A stretch of 35,301 bases of DNA from Rhizobium sp. Q54 (GCA_945901195.1 CAMDKB010000002.1:1-35301), one strand, 5' to 3'; shown: positions 16,406 to 34,813, numbered from the stretch's first letter. Numbers and translations are program-made. Notes: a model not told the origin generated them from the letters alone.

Positions 16406-17713
16406 TCAGCTGCCGCACTTATTGGTGACGGTGTTGAAGTTGCCGCATTTCTTGCCAACCCAGTCGGCTTCGAGGTCTTTTGAACCTTCGAGGAATTTCG
16501 ACCAGGCGTCACCAGCAACCAGTCCCTTGGTCTGCCACACCACATCAAACTGCCCATCCTTGCGGATTTCACCGATCATGACCGGCTTGGTGATATGGTG
16601 GTTCGGGAGCATTTTGGACATGCCACCGGTCAGGTTCGGAGCCTCGGTGCCCGGCAATGCGTCAATCACCTTGTCCGTGTCAATAGTACCGGCCTTTTCG
16701 ACAGCCTTGACCCACATGTTGAAGCCAACCACATGCGCTTCCATCGGATCATTGGTCACGCGCTTGGCGTTCTTTGTGAATGTCTGCCATTGCTTGATGA
16801 ACGCGTCATTGGCGGGCGTCTTCACTGACTGGAAGTAGTTCCAGGCCGCAAGGTGGCCAATAAGGTTGGACGTATCGATGCCGGCCAGTTCTTCTTCACC
16901 CACCGAGAAAGCGACAACTGGTATGTCCGTCGCCTTGATGCCAGCGTTAGCAAGTTCTTTGTAGAAAGGCACGTTGGCATCGCCATTGATGGTCGATACC
17001 ACAGCTGTTTTCTTACCAGCAGAACCGAACTTCTTGATGTCGGCCACGATCGTCTGCCAATCGGAATGTCCGAAGGGGGTGTAGTTGATCATGATGTCTT
17101 CTGCGGGAACGCCCTTGGCTTTCAGATAGGCTTCGAGAATTTTGTTGGTCGTGCGAGGATAAACATAGTCAGTTCCCGCCAGAATCCAGCGCTTCACTTC
17201 ACCGCCATCCTTGCTCATCAGATAGTCAACGGCAGGAATGGCCTGCTGATTGGGCGCAGCGCCAGTGTAAAACACGTTGCGCTCGCTTTCCTCGCCTTCA
17301 TATTGGACTGGATAAAAGAGGATGCTGTTGAGTTCTTTGAACACGGGCAGCACCGATTTCCGGCTCACCGAGGTCCAGCAGCCAAACACTGCGGCGACTT
17401 TTTGTTGAGCGATCAGTTCGCGCGCCTTTTCAGCAAACAGCGGCCAGTTCGAAGCGGGATCGACAACCACGGCTTCCAGTTTCTTGCCGAGCAATCCACC
17501 CTTTTTGTTCTGCTCTTCGATAAGCATAAGCATAACGTCTTTCAGCGTCGTCTCGCTGATCGCCATTGTTCCGGAAAGTGAATGCAGAATTCCGACCTTG
17601 ATCGTCTCCTGCGCGAAGGCAGGAATTGAGGCGCCCAGCATCATTGCGCCACCCAAGACTGCGGACAATGCGCCGCGCCTGCTGATCTTCCCAAAACTCA
17701 TGTCGAACCTCAT
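16406..17713 (-). CDS. urtA: Urea ABC transporter substrate-binding protein UrtA
   Basis: TAT-like leader SRRGALSAVLGGAMMLGASIPAFAQ; ETIKVGILHSLSGTMAISETTLKDVMLMLIEEQN. Confidence 0.96.
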   Translation of the reverse strand: MRFDMSFGKISRRGALSAVLGGAMMLGASIPAFAQETIKVGILHSLSGTMAISETTLKDVMLMLIEEQNKKGGLLGKKLEAVVVDPASNWPLFAEKARELIAQQKVAAVFGCWTSVSRKSVLPVFKELNSILFYPVQYEGEESERNVFYTGAAPNQQAIPAVDYLMSKDGGEVKRWILAGTDYVYPRTTNKILEAYLKAKGVPAEDIMINYTPFGHSDWQTIVADIKKFGSAGKKTAVVSTINGDANVPFYKELANAGIKATDIPVVAFSVGEEELAGIDTSNLIGHLAAWNYFQSVKTPANDAFIKQWQTFTKNAKRVTNDPMEAHVVGFNMWVKAVEKAGTIDTDKVIDALPGTEAPNLTGGMSKMLPNHHITKPVMIGEIRKDGQFDVVWQTKGLVAGDAWSKFLEGSKDLEADWVGKKCGNFNTVTNKCGS

Positions 17714-17741: not shown

Positions 17742-17757
17742 AGCAAGCTGTGTGCCA
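17742..17757 (-). promoter_or_regulatory. Sigma-54 (-24/-12) promoter for urtA
   Basis: Minus strand TGGCACA-CAGC-TTGCT; GG and GC separated by 10 nt; 29 bp from the ATG of the urtA ORF. Confidence 0.8.
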
Positions 17758-27515: not shown

Positions 27516-28535
27516 TCAACTTTGAAGTGCAACACCACTTTCAAGGTTTTTGCATAGGGAAGAGGCGCAGTAAACTTCTTCTGGGGTGAGGAAGCCGAGC
27601 TTTTTTCTGGGTCTGGTGTTTAGTTTGTCGGCGATGGCGTTGAGATCGGCTTGAGAGAAGGCGTTGAGGTCAGAGCTTTTAGGTAAATACTCGCGAAGCA
27701 AGCCGTTGGTATTTTCGTTAGAGCCTCGTTGCCACGGGGCATGCGGGTCACAAAAATAGACAGCGAGATTGAGAGTTGCCGCCAACAGATTGTGCTGTGC
27801 CATCTCGCGACCTTGGTCATAGGTGATGGACTTCAACAAGTCTGACGGCACGCCTTTCAGTTCACGCACGAAGCCTTCTCGAACAGTGTCGGCTTTCGCG
27901 TTGTCTAATTGAACGAGGATCACATAACGCGAAGTGCGTTCGACGAAGGTGCCGACCGACGAGCGATTATATTTGCCCTTGATCAAATAGCCTTCCCAGT
28001 GACCTAAAATCTCGCGACTGTCGATTTCCTTCGGTCTATCAGCGATAAGCGTCATGTTTTGGATTTTGCCTCGACGGTCTTCGCCGCGTGCCCGAGACTT
28101 GCGTGTCTTGTGGGACTTGCGTAACAGCCTGATCATTTCGGTACGCAGGCCGCCGCGAGGATACGCATAGATATGCGCATAAATCGTCTCGTGGCTCACA
28201 TGCTGGCTGGGGTCATCGGGGTGCATACGTTTGAGTTTGCCCGCAACTTGTTCCCGCGACTAGCCCTTACCCATCAGCACCTGTATTTTCAACCAAAGCG
28301 AAGGGGCATTCGACAAGAGCTTCTTGCGCCGGAACTTGCGTTCTTTGCACCGTGCCGCCGCATCTTGCGGCAGATAATCATCATTGGCTCCAGCATTACG
28401 ATTAATCTCCCGGCTCACCGTGCAAACCGGCCGTTTAAGCAGGAGGGCAATTGCCCTCCTGCTTAAACCATGCGCCAAACCGACCGCTATAACGCTCCGT
28501 TCTTCTGTTTCTCACTGCTTGTATTCTCTGCCCAT
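27516..28535 (-). pseudogene. IS30-family transposase with two in-frame stop codons
   Basis: MGREYKQ*ETEERSVIAVGLAHGLSRRAIALLLKRPVCTVSREINRNAG...LMGKG*SREQVAGKLKRMHPDDPSQHVSHETIYAHIYAYPRGGL...SRYVILVQLDNAKADTV...PWQRGSNENTNGLLREYLPK, all in one frame. Confidence 0.85.
28433..28468. repeat. 36-bp perfect palindrome inside the IS30 transposase gene
   Basis: GTTTAAGCAGGAGGGCAATTGCCCTCCTGCTTAAAC is self-complementary. Confidence 0.97.
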
Positions 28536-29122: not shown

Positions 29123-30169
29123 ATGATGCTTGTGCGCAATCTTGCCTTCCGTATCGCTGCCTGCTGGATTGCCACAAGCGGTATCCATCCTTCAGTCCAT
29201 GCGCAGGAAGTGGAAAACTTCTATCGCAACCGCAACGTAAGTCTGCTCGTCGGCACAACTCCGGGCGGCTATTACGATATCGGCAGCCGCGTCGTCGCGC
29301 GCCACATCGGCCAGTTTATTCCGGGCAAGCCCAACATCGTCGTCCAGAATCAACCGGGAGCTGGCGGCTATTTCGTCGTCAATCGTCTCCTCAATGCCAT
29401 TGAACGTGATGGCGCTACATTTGCAACAATTAACCGAGGCTTGCCGCAAGTAGCACTGACTGGCGATCCAAAAGTCAATTTTGATCCGTTGCGCCTGACC
29501 TGGCTCGGCAGTCTGAGTTCCTACAAGGACGACGCTTATCTCGCCGTGGTCAACTCATCAGGCCCTATCAAATCTCTCGCTGATCTGAAGGGCAACATGC
29601 CCGTGCATTTTGGCAGCACCGGAACAGGCTCAACCAACACGGCGTTCGCCCTGCTCGCCAACGAAATCCTCGGGTTGAAGCTGGATGTCGTGAGGGGTTT
29701 TCCGGGTGTCGCGCAGGTTTGGCTTGCTATGGAGACGGGCGAAGTCGACGGACAGATCATCGACATCAGCGCCATACTCGTTGGGCGGCCAGGGTTGTGG
29801 CGGGATGGAAAGTTGCGGCCCGTCGTCGCCTTCGGTCGCACCGCAAGACTGAAGGAATTTCCCGATGTTCCCGTCGCGCGGGAACTCGTGACAGACCCGA
29901 AAGACCGCGCTTTGCTGGAGTTCGCCGAATTCAGCTTCTTCATGGCCTTGCCCTTTGCTGCGCCACCTGAACTTCCGCCCGCGCGTGAAAGAGCGTTGCG
30001 CGAAGCCTTCATGAAGATGACCGCCGATCCGGCCTATGAAACCGACATTCGGAAGGTGGGGCTTCTGCCAAGCCCGATAGATGGTGCAGTAATTGTTGAA
30101 CTCATAAAGAATGCGATGAAAACGCCGGAGGATGTCCGCCGGCGCTTCGGTAAGATGCTGTCGGACTGA
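29123..30169 (+). CDS. TTT/Bug-family substrate-binding protein
   Basis: Signal peptide ending VHAQ; VENFYRNRNVSLLVGTTPGGYYDIGSRVVARHIGQFIPGKPNIVVQNQPGAGG. Confidence 0.88.
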   Translation: MMLVRNLAFRIAACWIATSGIHPSVHAQEVENFYRNRNVSLLVGTTPGGYYDIGSRVVARHIGQFIPGKPNIVVQNQPGAGGYFVVNRLLNAIERDGATFATINRGLPQVALTGDPKVNFDPLRLTWLGSLSSYKDDAYLAVVNSSGPIKSLADLKGNMPVHFGSTGTGSTNTAFALLANEILGLKLDVVRGFPGVAQVWLAMETGEVDGQIIDISAILVGRPGLWRDGKLRPVVAFGRTARLKEFPDVPVARELVTDPKDRALLEFAEFSFFMALPFAAPPELPPARERALREAFMKMTADPAYETDIRKVGLLPSPIDGAVIVELIKNAMKTPEDVRRRFGKMLSD

Positions 30170-30211
30170 TTGTTACAAGAACACTCCATAAATATTAGGG
30201 AAGGATCGGAA

Positions 30212-31045
30212 ATGAGTGAGTACTTGCTGGTCGATATCATTCGCGATGGGCAGATCGCAACAATCGAACTTAAACGTCTCGAACGGCAATTACGCGAAAT
30301 GATGTCAGGCCGCCCTGGCGGCGTGCAAAGGGCTGCGGAAGTCGGCCGTGCGCTGAACGAACTGCGCAACGACAATTCCGTACGTGTCATCATTATCACG
30401 GGCAAGGAGGACGTTTTTACTATACCGCCATCGTCTTACGGACATCACGGCAATCCCGGCGTCGATTGGGATATCATGAATGGCGTGACACGGGCAGTCG
30501 AAATCATGTGCACGATTGAAAAGCCAGTCATCGCGAAGGTCAACGGCCACGCCGTCGGCTTTGGAGCAAACCTTGTGCTGGCATGCGATTTCATAGTCGC
30601 GCGCGAAGACGCTATAATTGCCGATCATCACATGAGCGCCGGCGAATTGATGATCGACGGCGAGCAAAAAGGCTCCGCCGATCATTGCATGGTGACTGGC
30701 GATGGCGGCGCAGTATTTGCACCGATGAAAATGCCAATGAACATGGCAAAGGAATACCTCATGCTGGCCCGCCCGTTCACTGCGAAGGAACTCGCAGCCA
30801 TGGGCGTTGTAAACTATGCTTTGGCAGCCGACCAGATTGACGCCAAGACACAGGAAATCGCTGAACGGCTTCTGAAACGCAATCCATATGCGCTGGCACT
30901 GACCAAACGTGTGCTGAACAAGCAGCTGCTGGCGCAGTTCAATATGGTGCACGATGCCTCTCTGGGCTATGAATTCCTGAATTTCTATATGCAAACGCCG
31001 CAAGCGCGGGAGCAAGGCAAGGGCCGGGGTGAAGAGACACTCTGA
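30212..31045 (+). CDS. Enoyl-CoA hydratase/isomerase (crotonase) family protein, divergent
   Basis: VRVIIITGKEDVFT, IEKPVIAKVNGHAVGFGANLVLACDFIVA crotonase motif. Confidence 0.83.
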   Translation: MSEYLLVDIIRDGQIATIELKRLERQLREMMSGRPGGVQRAAEVGRALNELRNDNSVRVIIITGKEDVFTIPPSSYGHHGNPGVDWDIMNGVTRAVEIMCTIEKPVIAKVNGHAVGFGANLVLACDFIVAREDAIIADHHMSAGELMIDGEQKGSADHCMVTGDGGAVFAPMKMPMNMAKEYLMLARPFTAKELAAMGVVNYALAADQIDAKTQEIAERLLKRNPYALALTKRVLNKQLLAQFNMVHDASLGYEFLNFYMQTPQAREQGKGRGEETL

Positions 31046-31090
31046 GGCCACGCCTACGCATACACAAACAAGATATCAAAGGGGGAAACG

Positions 31091-32122
31091 ATGAAACGAA
31101 TTATGGTCACAACATTGAGCCTGTGCCTGCTCGGTTTCGCACCGGCGGCGCACGCACAACCTGCAGCCGATTTTTATAAAAGCCGCACGGTTACGCTCAT
31201 CGTTCCATTTTCGGCAGGTGGCATTTATGACATCGCCAGCCGGCTTCTCGCGCGGCACATGCCAAGGCACATTCCCGGCAACCCGAACATGATCGTCCAG
31301 AATCAGCCGGGGGGCGGTGGAATTACATCAGCCAACCGGCTGGCCTCGGCGATTGAAAAAGACGGCCTCACCTTTGCATCAATCAGTCGCGGCATCCCGC
31401 AGCTTGCTATCGTCGGAGAGCCTAATATTCACTTTGATCCGGCGAAACTGACCTGGCTGGGTTCGATTTCCTCCTATGCCGATGACGCTTACCTCCTGAC
31501 GATCATGACGACTAACAAGATCAATTCGGTTAAGGATGCTCAAGCCTCCACAATTCATATGGGCGGCGTCGGCGCAGGTGCAACCAACACAACATTCGCG
31601 ATGCTGGCCCGCGATTTGCTTGGCATGAAGGTCGAAGTTGTCAAAGGCTTTCCCGGCGCCAATGATATCTGGCTTGGTATGGAACGCGGCGAAGTAGATG
31701 GACAGACGATTGACGTCAGCGCCATCAAATCATCCCGTCCCGCTTTGTGGAACGAAAAGAAGGTCAAATTTCTCGTGCAATTTGCTCGTGCAACCCGTCT
31801 GACTTACATGCCCGATGTACCAACAGGCCGTGAACTGACTCGAAACGCTGAAGACAAGGCCTTGCTCGAATTTGCCGAAAGTCCATTCTTCATGGCTCTG
31901 CCTTACGCAGCGCCTCCAGACATTCCTGCGGATCGCGCCAGGATTTTGACCACCGCATTCATGGCCACCACCACGAGCCGCGAATTTCTCGAAGAAGTTG
32001 AAAAAGTAGGTATCAACGCAAGCCCTATCGACGGCGAGGCCGTGAGAAGGATAGTGATGGAAGCTGCCCAAACCCCCAAACCTATCCGCGATCGCCTCGC
32101 AGAATTCCTTTTAGCCAAATGA
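31091..32122 (+). CDS. TTT/Bug-family substrate-binding protein, close paralog of 29123..30169
   Basis: ADFYKSRTVTLIVPFSAGGIYDIASRLLARHMPRHIPGNPNMIVQNQPGGGG. Confidence 0.88.
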   Translation: MKRIMVTTLSLCLLGFAPAAHAQPAADFYKSRTVTLIVPFSAGGIYDIASRLLARHMPRHIPGNPNMIVQNQPGGGGITSANRLASAIEKDGLTFASISRGIPQLAIVGEPNIHFDPAKLTWLGSISSYADDAYLLTIMTTNKINSVKDAQASTIHMGGVGAGATNTTFAMLARDLLGMKVEVVKGFPGANDIWLGMERGEVDGQTIDVSAIKSSRPALWNEKKVKFLVQFARATRLTYMPDVPTGRELTRNAEDKALLEFAESPFFMALPYAAPPDIPADRARILTTAFMATTTSREFLEEVEKVGINASPIDGEAVRRIVMEAAQTPKPIRDRLAEFLLAK

Positions 32123-33129
32123 GTGTCTCCATGCAGAAACAAAAGCGCATCATGGTAATGGCCGGCCCCGGCACTTTGCCCTCCCAAGGCCGGGATCGCA
32201 TGGACCTTACCCATTATAACGTCAAATTCAGCGGCAAGCCCCGGCTGACCCCGGTTGAAATGCTCGATGCCTGGCCCGAAATTTCTCAATATGCGGAAAC
32301 ATGCACCGACGATGGTCCTGTTATGGAAGTAGCAACCCATGATGACTTGCACCGTCTGTCATTGCGGATTCAGGAAATTTTGCAGCGCAGTGATATTAAT
32401 GGCCTGGTCTGGATTCAGGGTACAAATACACTGGAAGAGACCGCGTTCTTTCTCAACCTGACCGTGCGAAGCGACAAGCCAGTCGTCGTTGTCGGCGCCC
32501 AACGTCCTTTCACCGCCATCAGTACCGACGCCCATCTTAATCTGGTCAATGCCGTGCGCGTCGCAGCGTGCACGGATACGCGAGGCAAGGGCGTTGTCAC
32601 CGTCACTAATAGTGAAATCAATGCTGCACGTGATGTGACAAAAACATCCACGTTTCAGGTACAAACATTTCGCAGCCGTGATCTCGGTGTGATGGGTTAC
32701 GCCGATGCTGACCGCATTGTTTATTATCGAGCGCCGGTTCGGCGCCACACGACGCTTTCGGAATTCGACCTCGACAAGGTGACTGAGATGCCGCGCGTCG
32801 AAATTCTCTACGGCCATACGGGAGCCGATCCGCGTCTTGCGCGCTCAGCGGTCGAGCTAGGTGCTCAAGGGCTTGTGTTTGCCGGAATCGGTGCAGGCGC
32901 ACTTGGCGTCTATACCGATGAACTGAGAAAGCTCGCTTCAGAAGGCATTCTCATCGCACGAAGCGCCCGTGTTGGCGAAGGCCGCGTCCTCAACATCGGC
33001 AATACCTATGAGGAAGGCATGGCGGCTGCGGACAATCTGAATCCCCAAAAGGCCGCGCTTTTGCTTGCGTTGGGTATGACCCGGACACGCGATATCAATG
33101 AAATCCAGCGCGTGTTCGACGAATATTGA
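32119..33129 (+). CDS. Asparaginase/glutaminase-family amidohydrolase-like protein
   Basis: VWIQGTNTLEETAFFLNLTVRSDKPVVVVGAQRP, AARDVTKTSTFQVQTFRS; ATGA overlap with upstream SBP. Confidence 0.85.
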   Translation: MSVSMQKQKRIMVMAGPGTLPSQGRDRMDLTHYNVKFSGKPRLTPVEMLDAWPEISQYAETCTDDGPVMEVATHDDLHRLSLRIQEILQRSDINGLVWIQGTNTLEETAFFLNLTVRSDKPVVVVGAQRPFTAISTDAHLNLVNAVRVAACTDTRGKGVVTVTNSEINAARDVTKTSTFQVQTFRSRDLGVMGYADADRIVYYRAPVRRHTTLSEFDLDKVTEMPRVEILYGHTGADPRLARSAVELGAQGLVFAGIGAGALGVYTDELRKLASEGILIARSARVGEGRVLNIGNTYEEGMAAADNLNPQKAALLLALGMTRTRDINEIQRVFDEY

Positions 33130-33423: not shown

Positions 33424-33439
33424 TGGTACAAGGGTTGCT
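33424..33439 (+). promoter_or_regulatory. Sigma-54 (-24/-12) promoter for the nitrate-type ABC genes
   Basis: TGGTACA-AGGG-TTGCT; GG and GC separated by 10 nt; 54 bp upstream of the ATG at 33494. Confidence 0.78.
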
Positions 33440-33493: not shown

Positions 33494-34813
33494 ATGAACA
33501 ATAAATTTTTGCGTTGCAGCAATGAGAATGTGTCTGGCGTCAACCGCCGTGAACTTTTGCGGACTGGCGCCGCCACCGCGCTGATTTCAGCGGTATCGTC
33601 AACCTTTCCGTCGGGAGTTTTTGCGCAAACGTCCGGTCCGGAAGTGAAAGGCACAAAACTCGGTTATATCGCCCTGACGGACGCAGCGCCGCTCGTGATT
33701 GCTCAGGAAAAGGGTTTATTCGCCAAGCACGGCTTGCCCGAAATGGAGATTCTGAAGCAGGCCTCATGGGGCGCCATGCGCGACAACATGGCGCTTGGGA
33801 CAAAATCAAACGGCATTGATGGCGGGCATATTCTAAGGCCCAAGACGCATCTTTATTCGACCGGCAAGGTCATGCAGAACAATCAGCCATTGCCAATGTA
33901 CACGCTGATAAGTCTGAATGAGGATTGTCAGGGCCTGTCGGTCTCCAATGAATATAAAGATCTCAAAATTGGAACTGACAGCACCGCTCTGAAGGAAGCT
34001 TTTGCAAAAAAGAAGGCGTCCGGCAAAGACATAAAAGTCGCGATGACTTTTCCCGGCGGGACACATGATCTCTGGATACGTTATTGGCTTGCAGCAGGCG
34101 GAATCGATCCCGACAAGGACATCTCGACCATAGTCGTTCCACCACCGCAGATGGTCGCGAACATGAAGGTCGGCAATATGGATGCTTTCTGCGTTGGTGA
34201 GCCGTGGAACGAACAGCTCGTCAATCAGGATATCGGGTTCACCGCCGCCACCACCGGTGAAATCTGGTTCAAACACCCGGAAAAAATCCTGGGTATGCGC
34301 GCTGATTGGGTCGACGCCAATCCGAAGGCCGCACTTGCCATCATGATGGCAGTGATGGAAGCCCAGATGTGGTGCGAAAAAATGGAAAACAAGGAAGAGA
34401 TGGCGACCATCATAGGCCGTCGTCAATGGTTCAATGTCCCGGTGCCCGACATCATCGGCCGTATCAAGGGTGACATAAATTATGGCCGCGGACGTGTCGT
34501 AAAGGGCACCAATTTGCTGATGAAATTCTGGGGCGAAAAAGGCGAAGTTTCATATCCCTGGAAAAGTCTGGATTCGTGGTTCATTACCGAGAATATCCGT
34601 TGGGGCAAATTCGAACCGTCGCTGGATATCAAGGCGCTGGTGAACAAAACCAACCGCAGCGATCTTTGGCTGGAAGCGGCCAAAGGACTTGGGCTGAAAA
34701 GCACGCCAACAGGCGATAGCCGCGGTATCGAGAAATTCTTTGACGGCAAGACCTTCGACCCCGCCGATCCGCAAGCCTATCTCAAATCTCTCAGCATAAA
34801 GCGCATTGCATGA
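33494..34813 (+). CDS. Nitrate/nitrite-type ABC transporter substrate-binding protein (NrtA/CmpA family)
   Basis: TAT-like NRRELLRTGAATALISAV; KLGYIALTDAAPLVIAQEKGLFAKHGL, GTHDLWIRYWLAAGGIDPDKD, GNMDAFCVGEPWNEQ. Confidence 0.9.
   Translation: MNNKFLRCSNENVSGVNRRELLRTGAATALISAVSSTFPSGVFAQTSGPEVKGTKLGYIALTDAAPLVIAQEKGLFAKHGLPEMEILKQASWGAMRDNMALGTKSNGIDGGHILRPKTHLYSTGKVMQNNQPLPMYTLISLNEDCQGLSVSNEYKDLKIGTDSTALKEAFAKKKASGKDIKVAMTFPGGTHDLWIRYWLAAGGIDPDKDISTIVVPPPQMVANMKVGNMDAFCVGEPWNEQLVNQDIGFTAATTGEIWFKHPEKILGMRADWVDANPKAALAIMMAVMEAQMWCEKMENKEEMATIIGRRQWFNVPVPDIIGRIKGDINYGRGRVVKGTNLLMKFWGEKGEVSYPWKSLDSWFITENIRWGKFEPSLDIKALVNKTNRSDLWLEAAKGLGLKSTPTGDSRGIEKFFDGKTFDPADPQAYLKSLSIKRIA

Follow-up and report, generated by a model that had tools for sequence, protein, structure and literature searches.

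The systems closest to the locus examined here are the orphan TctC/Bug-type solute-binding proteins (SBPs) of Bordetella and Rhodoplanes, where TctC-type SBPs are present in surplus over TctA/TctB (PMC5994714). There is precedent for orphan SBPs adjoining catabolic enzymes (PMC4996985), and orphan TTT receptors adjoining AMDases in particular have been reported (PMC4996985). The present locus resembles the first group in its surplus of SBPs, in the position of their genes away from TctAB and in a matching fold (PMC5994714), but differs from it in that a single SBP clade goes with a single enzyme in 20 genomes and a sister clade goes mostly with an AMDase-family protein. With the AMDase clusters it shares the arrangement of a cofactor-free catabolic enzyme beside an orphan TTT receptor, whereas the enzyme here is a crotonase-fold protein and an asparaginase-like gene can be added to the pair (PMC4996985). 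Literature searches brought up no fitting account of a crotonase/TTT/asparaginase cluster, nor of isonicotinate/citrazinate pathways.

The window, by which is meant the whole stretch of 35,301 nucleotides analysed (Rhizobium sp. Q54, GCA_945901195.1 CAMDKB010000002.1:1-35301), carries four open reading frames on its plus strand, separated by short gaps, whose profile matches agree with the families given in the initial annotation. The first, SBP1 (29123-30169), encodes a TctC/Bug-type periplasmic solute-binding protein of 348 aa with an apparent signal peptide and is followed by a crotonase-fold enzyme, CRO (30206-31045; 277-279 aa; PF00378 (ECH_1), 102.5 bits), which probably starts at 30212 rather than 30206 and is apparently cytoplasmic. 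A second TctC/Bug-type protein, SBP2 (31091-32122; 343 aa), also has an apparent signal peptide, and both SBPs exceed the PF03401 gathering cut-off of 27 bits (46.1 bits for SBP1 and 31.7 for SBP2). The fourth gene encodes an asparaginase-fold amidohydrolase, ASN (32119-33129; PF00710 (Asparaginase N) 132 bits, PF17763 (C) 81 bits), without an apparent signal peptide. An ATGA overlap between SBP2 and ASN, earlier taken as a sign of tight co-expression, is indeed present at 32119-32122, but the sister genome G139 reads GTGA there. Because the ATG common to both genomes sits 12 bp downstream of the overlap, the true start of ASN may be 32131 rather than 32119; the spacing of the two genes is tight with either start. 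Since dN/dS against G139 lies between 0.017 and 0.068 (SBP1 0.025, CRO 0.017, SBP2 0.026, ASN 0.068), all four genes are predicted to be functional and maintained under strong purifying selection. A broken IS30-family transposase, with its N-terminal part in a separate frame, occupies window positions 27516-28418, ~0.7 kb upstream of SBP1.

Within the genome neither SBP has a closer paralogue than the other, with 50% identity, and the two are the only matches at E<=1e-75; they also fall into sister clades in the tree, so that their description as paralogous TTT SBPs holds. An AlphaFold model of SBP1 (pLDDT 86) has the TTT SBP fold, its best fold matches being TphC, terephthalate-binding protein (TBP), MatC and Bug27. 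The initial annotation had also drawn attention to the lack of TctAB. This is true, as none of the nine TctA matches of the genome lies on the contig of the window (C2) and there is no complete TTT operon, but it is uninformative: the 4.3 Mb draft genome (G000) has at least 150 TctC matches but only ~7 TctA genes, represented by those nine matches, so SBPs without TctAB partners are the norm in it. The expansion of TctC-type SBPs is thus strong in this Beijerinckiaceae-type genus.

Conservation was surveyed in 51 genomes of the genus, drafts of varying completeness in which absences are soft, with genes of the relatives, which are GC-rich, called by a simple codon-model caller. A CRO orthologue (>=70% identity) was found in 23 of the 51, and SBP1 adjoins it in 20 of these. 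The three exceptions are G217, in which CRO lies with another SBP and an AMDase-family gene, and G215 and G203, which have no adjacent SBP. In a tree of 90 SBPs the 20 CRO-adjacent SBP1s form a single clade, sister to the SBP2 clade. The first set of SBP1-clade sequences was chosen via CRO loci and hence biased, and it was retested with SBPs chosen by their likeness to SBP2 and with a direct SBP1 search. None of 24 further SBPs fetched by SBP2 similarity alone belonged to the SBP1 clade. The strongest matches in the direct search all fell within the SBP1 and SBP2 clades, and no SBP1-clade gene apart from CRO was found in the 51 genomes among the candidates scored (at most 41 per genome). The distance matrices of SBP1 and CRO are correlated (r 0.81, Mantel p 0.0005), with CRO changing much more slowly than SBP1 (median distance 0.17 vs 0.38).

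The linkage of the other two genes is looser. An ASN orthologue occurs in 10/51 genomes and is linked to the SBP1-CRO pair in seven, in three gene orders: SBP1-CRO-SBP2-ASN in the window genome G000 and in G139, CRO-SBP1 divergent from SBP2-ASN in G230 and G231, and ASN-SBP1-CRO in G181, G210 and G239. In a further genome (G237) ASN lies on a different contig from CRO, and in two (G226 and G233) ASN is found without CRO, beside a molybdenum hydroxylase; a frameshift or sequencing error divides the G233 orthologue (L097:9363-10366) into two ORFs. Co-occurrence of ASN with CRO (8/10 ASN genomes) gave a hypergeometric p of 0.016, a value not corrected for phylogeny. Repeated re-linkage in different orders argues for a functional tie of ASN to the pair. 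An obligate module is disfavoured, since ASN is missing from 15 of the 23 CRO genomes, and CRO is missing from two of the ten with ASN. The full quartet, in its two arrangements, is confined to 4/51 genomes, the order seen in the window to two, and the four genes are not co-inherited and clustered as a conserved module. Of the co-conservation expected of the whole cassette, therefore, the part concerning SBP1 and CRO is strongly borne out and that concerning the quartet only weakly; the lasting unit is the SBP1-CRO pair, to which SBP2 and ASN are a looser add-on.

The window and its relatives belong to a little-known lineage of Beijerinckiaceae type, and several relatives with a close CRO may come from lakes or ponds. 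Wider sampling covered ~200 genomes of the family and 385 of the class. Outside the genus only scattered CRO homologues, of 44-46% identity, were found in these samples, and the class search gave no ASN homologue above 44% in the 385 genomes. A spread of the set across Alphaproteobacteria was thus not seen, occurrence at the level of orthologues being limited to one genus in the sampled genomes. Two of the distant CRO homologues (G022 and G292) lie beside TRAP transporter genes. The G022 homologue shares what looks like an operon with short-chain dehydrogenases, an amidase (PF01425), a cyclase-family hydrolase and a complete TRAP set (DctPQM). The genes divergent from the G292 homologue were recognised, by sequence alone, as a TRAP-like DctPQM set. 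The G022 amidase is of another family than ASN and may be an independent hint at amide chemistry.

CRO belongs by fold and profile to the enoyl-CoA hydratase/crotonase superfamily, which includes beta-diketone hydrolase and 6-oxocamphor hydrolase. The catalytic glutamates of enoyl-CoA hydratase are Glu144 and Glu164 in the rat enzyme, and 6-oxocamphor hydrolase is a retro-Claisen C-C hydrolase with a catalytic His/Asp pair, His145/Asp154. CRO departs from the superfamily in the replacement of its Glu pair, in an insert and in scores below every NCBIfam cut-off shown. The positions aligned to the two glutamates are Asn120 and His140, so CRO lacks the catalytic pair expected of an enoyl-CoA hydratase (EC 4.2.1.17). 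His140 and Asp164, the Asp of a GDGG motif, are invariant in 17/17 aligned homologues, down to 42% identity, and in CROs of the genus they are separated by an insert of ~15 residues that carries a conserved GSADHCM. This pair may be comparable with His145/Asp154 of 6-oxocamphor hydrolase, which lie in the same region. Profile matches of CRO to beta-diketone hydrolase and 6-oxocamphor hydrolase were no better than those to hydratases, and the nearest folds to a low-depth structure model (pLDDT 75) were generic enoyl-CoA hydratases and not discriminating. The loss of both hydratase glutamates, together with the retention of an invariant His and Asp, makes an enoyl-CoA hydratase the less likely identity of CRO. 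A hydrolase or lyase is favoured, whose reaction could for example be the retro-Claisen cleavage of a C-C bond in a 1,3-dicarbonyl.

ASN presents a similar case. It resembles type II L-asparaginase in both Pfam domains and, by comparison with homologues, in retaining the equivalents of Thr12, Tyr25, Thr89 and Lys162. It differs from that enzyme in its apparent lack of a signal peptide, in a TIGR00520 score of 277.7 bits, below the type II cut-off of 314.3, and at the Asp90 position, which is Asn in 10/10 orthologues and sets ASN apart from type II L-asparaginases. Asp90 is invariant in L-asparaginases and critical for the binding of canonical substrates (PMC6667453), and its loss suggests that ASN acts on some amide that is not L-asparagine and that perhaps lacks an alpha-amino group. 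The homologues sampled from other alphaproteobacteria often have Ala at this position, so the loss of Asp90 extends to a wider asparaginase-like set. At the loci L078-L088 most such homologues read HGTA in place of HGTD, and thus also have no Asp90; they may be mis-annotated as L-asparaginases.

Downstream of the cassette, and outside it, lies an NMT1-type ABC substrate-binding protein gene (33494-34813, plus strand; PF13379, 335 bits), preceded by an exact match to a sigma-54-type promoter, TGGTACAAGGGTTGCT (33424-33439, plus strand). In G139 the NMT1-type gene is followed by permease, ATPase and nitrate/nitrite-reductase-like genes. The other of the two exact sigma-54-type matches in the window, TGGCACACAGCTTGCT (17742-17757, minus strand), immediately precedes an ABC-type SBP gene (16406-17713, minus strand) in a region that seems to encode a urea transporter and urease. 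The cassette had been linked to the neighbouring, nitrogen-regulated ABC system. A scan of the window found no exact sigma-54-type match upstream of SBP1, however, and among the genomes surveyed none but those of the window and G139 have the cassette next to the NMT1-type gene. There is thus no support for nitrogen control of the cassette, whose membership of a nitrogen regulon was rejected.

Taken with the gene anatomy, the selection on the genes, the conservation of the pair and the residue changes, these comparisons are best explained by two nested functional pairs serving the uptake and catabolism of organic acids or amides, not by one fixed four-gene system, a reading to which we give roughly an even chance. 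The locus is most likely an uptake-plus-catabolism locus for an organic acid or amide, with a conjectured chemistry for which we infer ligands, an unlinked permease, reaction types and an order of steps. In the core pair SBP1 would bind a periplasmic organic acid for import by a membrane component encoded elsewhere, one of the few TctAB sets of the genome, and cytoplasmic CRO would act on the imported acid or on a product of it. In the accessory pair SBP2 would add uptake of a related ligand and ASN would release ammonia from an amide. The suggestion of the initial annotation, that an amide- or CoA-linked compound is taken up or sensed and is broken down, is a plausible one.

Sensing in place of import is an unlikely alternative. 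Loaded SBP1 and SBP2 would then address a sensor kinase encoded elsewhere, the role described for BctC of Bordetella, and the enzymes would metabolise the signal compound. The count of at least 150 SBPs to ~7 TctA is in keeping with such a role, which has been discussed for orphan TTT SBPs (PMC5994714, PMC4996985), but among the part of the neighbours that was profiled no conserved kinase or regulator was found at SBP1-CRO loci, and the distant CRO homologues beside TRAP transporters favour uptake. We are more doubtful still of a dedicated N-heteroaromatic route, in which a molybdenum hydroxylase would act first, CRO would open the ring or hydrolyse a C-C bond and ASN would deamidate the product. 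ASN adjoins a pair of 2Fe-2S and Mo-binding hydroxylase genes at two loci (L090 and L097), CRO lies near such genes, recognised by likeness of sequence, at two others (L116 and L117), the G022 operon unites a CRO homologue with an amidase, and quinolinate is bound by two Bordetella Bug proteins (PMC11452294). However, genomes of the genus have 12-40 molybdenum hydroxylase (MoCoBD_2) matches each. At such numbers one can be expected within 10 kb fairly frequently, and nearness was down-weighted as a pathway clue; there is no molybdenum hydroxylase by the cassette of the window. At one of these loci a TPP-dependent enzyme with an apparent twin-arginine signal lies beside a cytochrome c (L090:3232-5534), which suggests an exported TPP enzyme. 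A chance neighbourhood in an SBP-rich genome, where any enzyme may adjoin an SBP and ~7% of genes are by estimate expected to have an SBP neighbour, is very unlikely overall and is refuted for SBP1-CRO by the same SBP clade lying beside CRO in 20 genomes and nowhere else among the SBPs scored, but it may apply partly to SBP2-ASN-NMT1.

The pairing of SBP1 with CRO has a parallel. Of the 20 loci fetched for a third SBP clade, sister to SBP1/SBP2, 14 have an AMDase-family (PF17645) protein beside the SBP. At the loci L132-L150 (e.g. L133:4101-7034), where the third-clade SBP is mostly accompanied by the AMDase-family protein, a cupin and an EutA-like gene precede in several. The SBP1-CRO pair fits the same plan, that of one receptor clade and one enzyme. 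The parts are of known kinds, and the SBP-crotonase combination, sometimes joined by SBP2 and ASN, looks like a small, unstudied route for the uptake and breakdown of organic acids. A more specific proposal, which we regard as speculative and improbable in its full form, is a catabolic route in which a CRO C-C hydrolase with its own receptor and a non-canonical ASN with a sister receptor would degrade an amide-bearing cyclic or dicarbonyl acid, possibly derived from an N-heteroaromatic compound, the receptor-enzyme pairs co-evolving.

With both active sites altered, automatic annotation would mislabel CRO as an enoyl-CoA hydratase and ASN as an L-asparaginase. For the role of the hundreds of orphan TTT binding proteins, the one-to-one inheritance of receptor and enzyme gives a handle: the substrate of the enzyme and the ligand of the receptor should match, so that one assay can identify the other.
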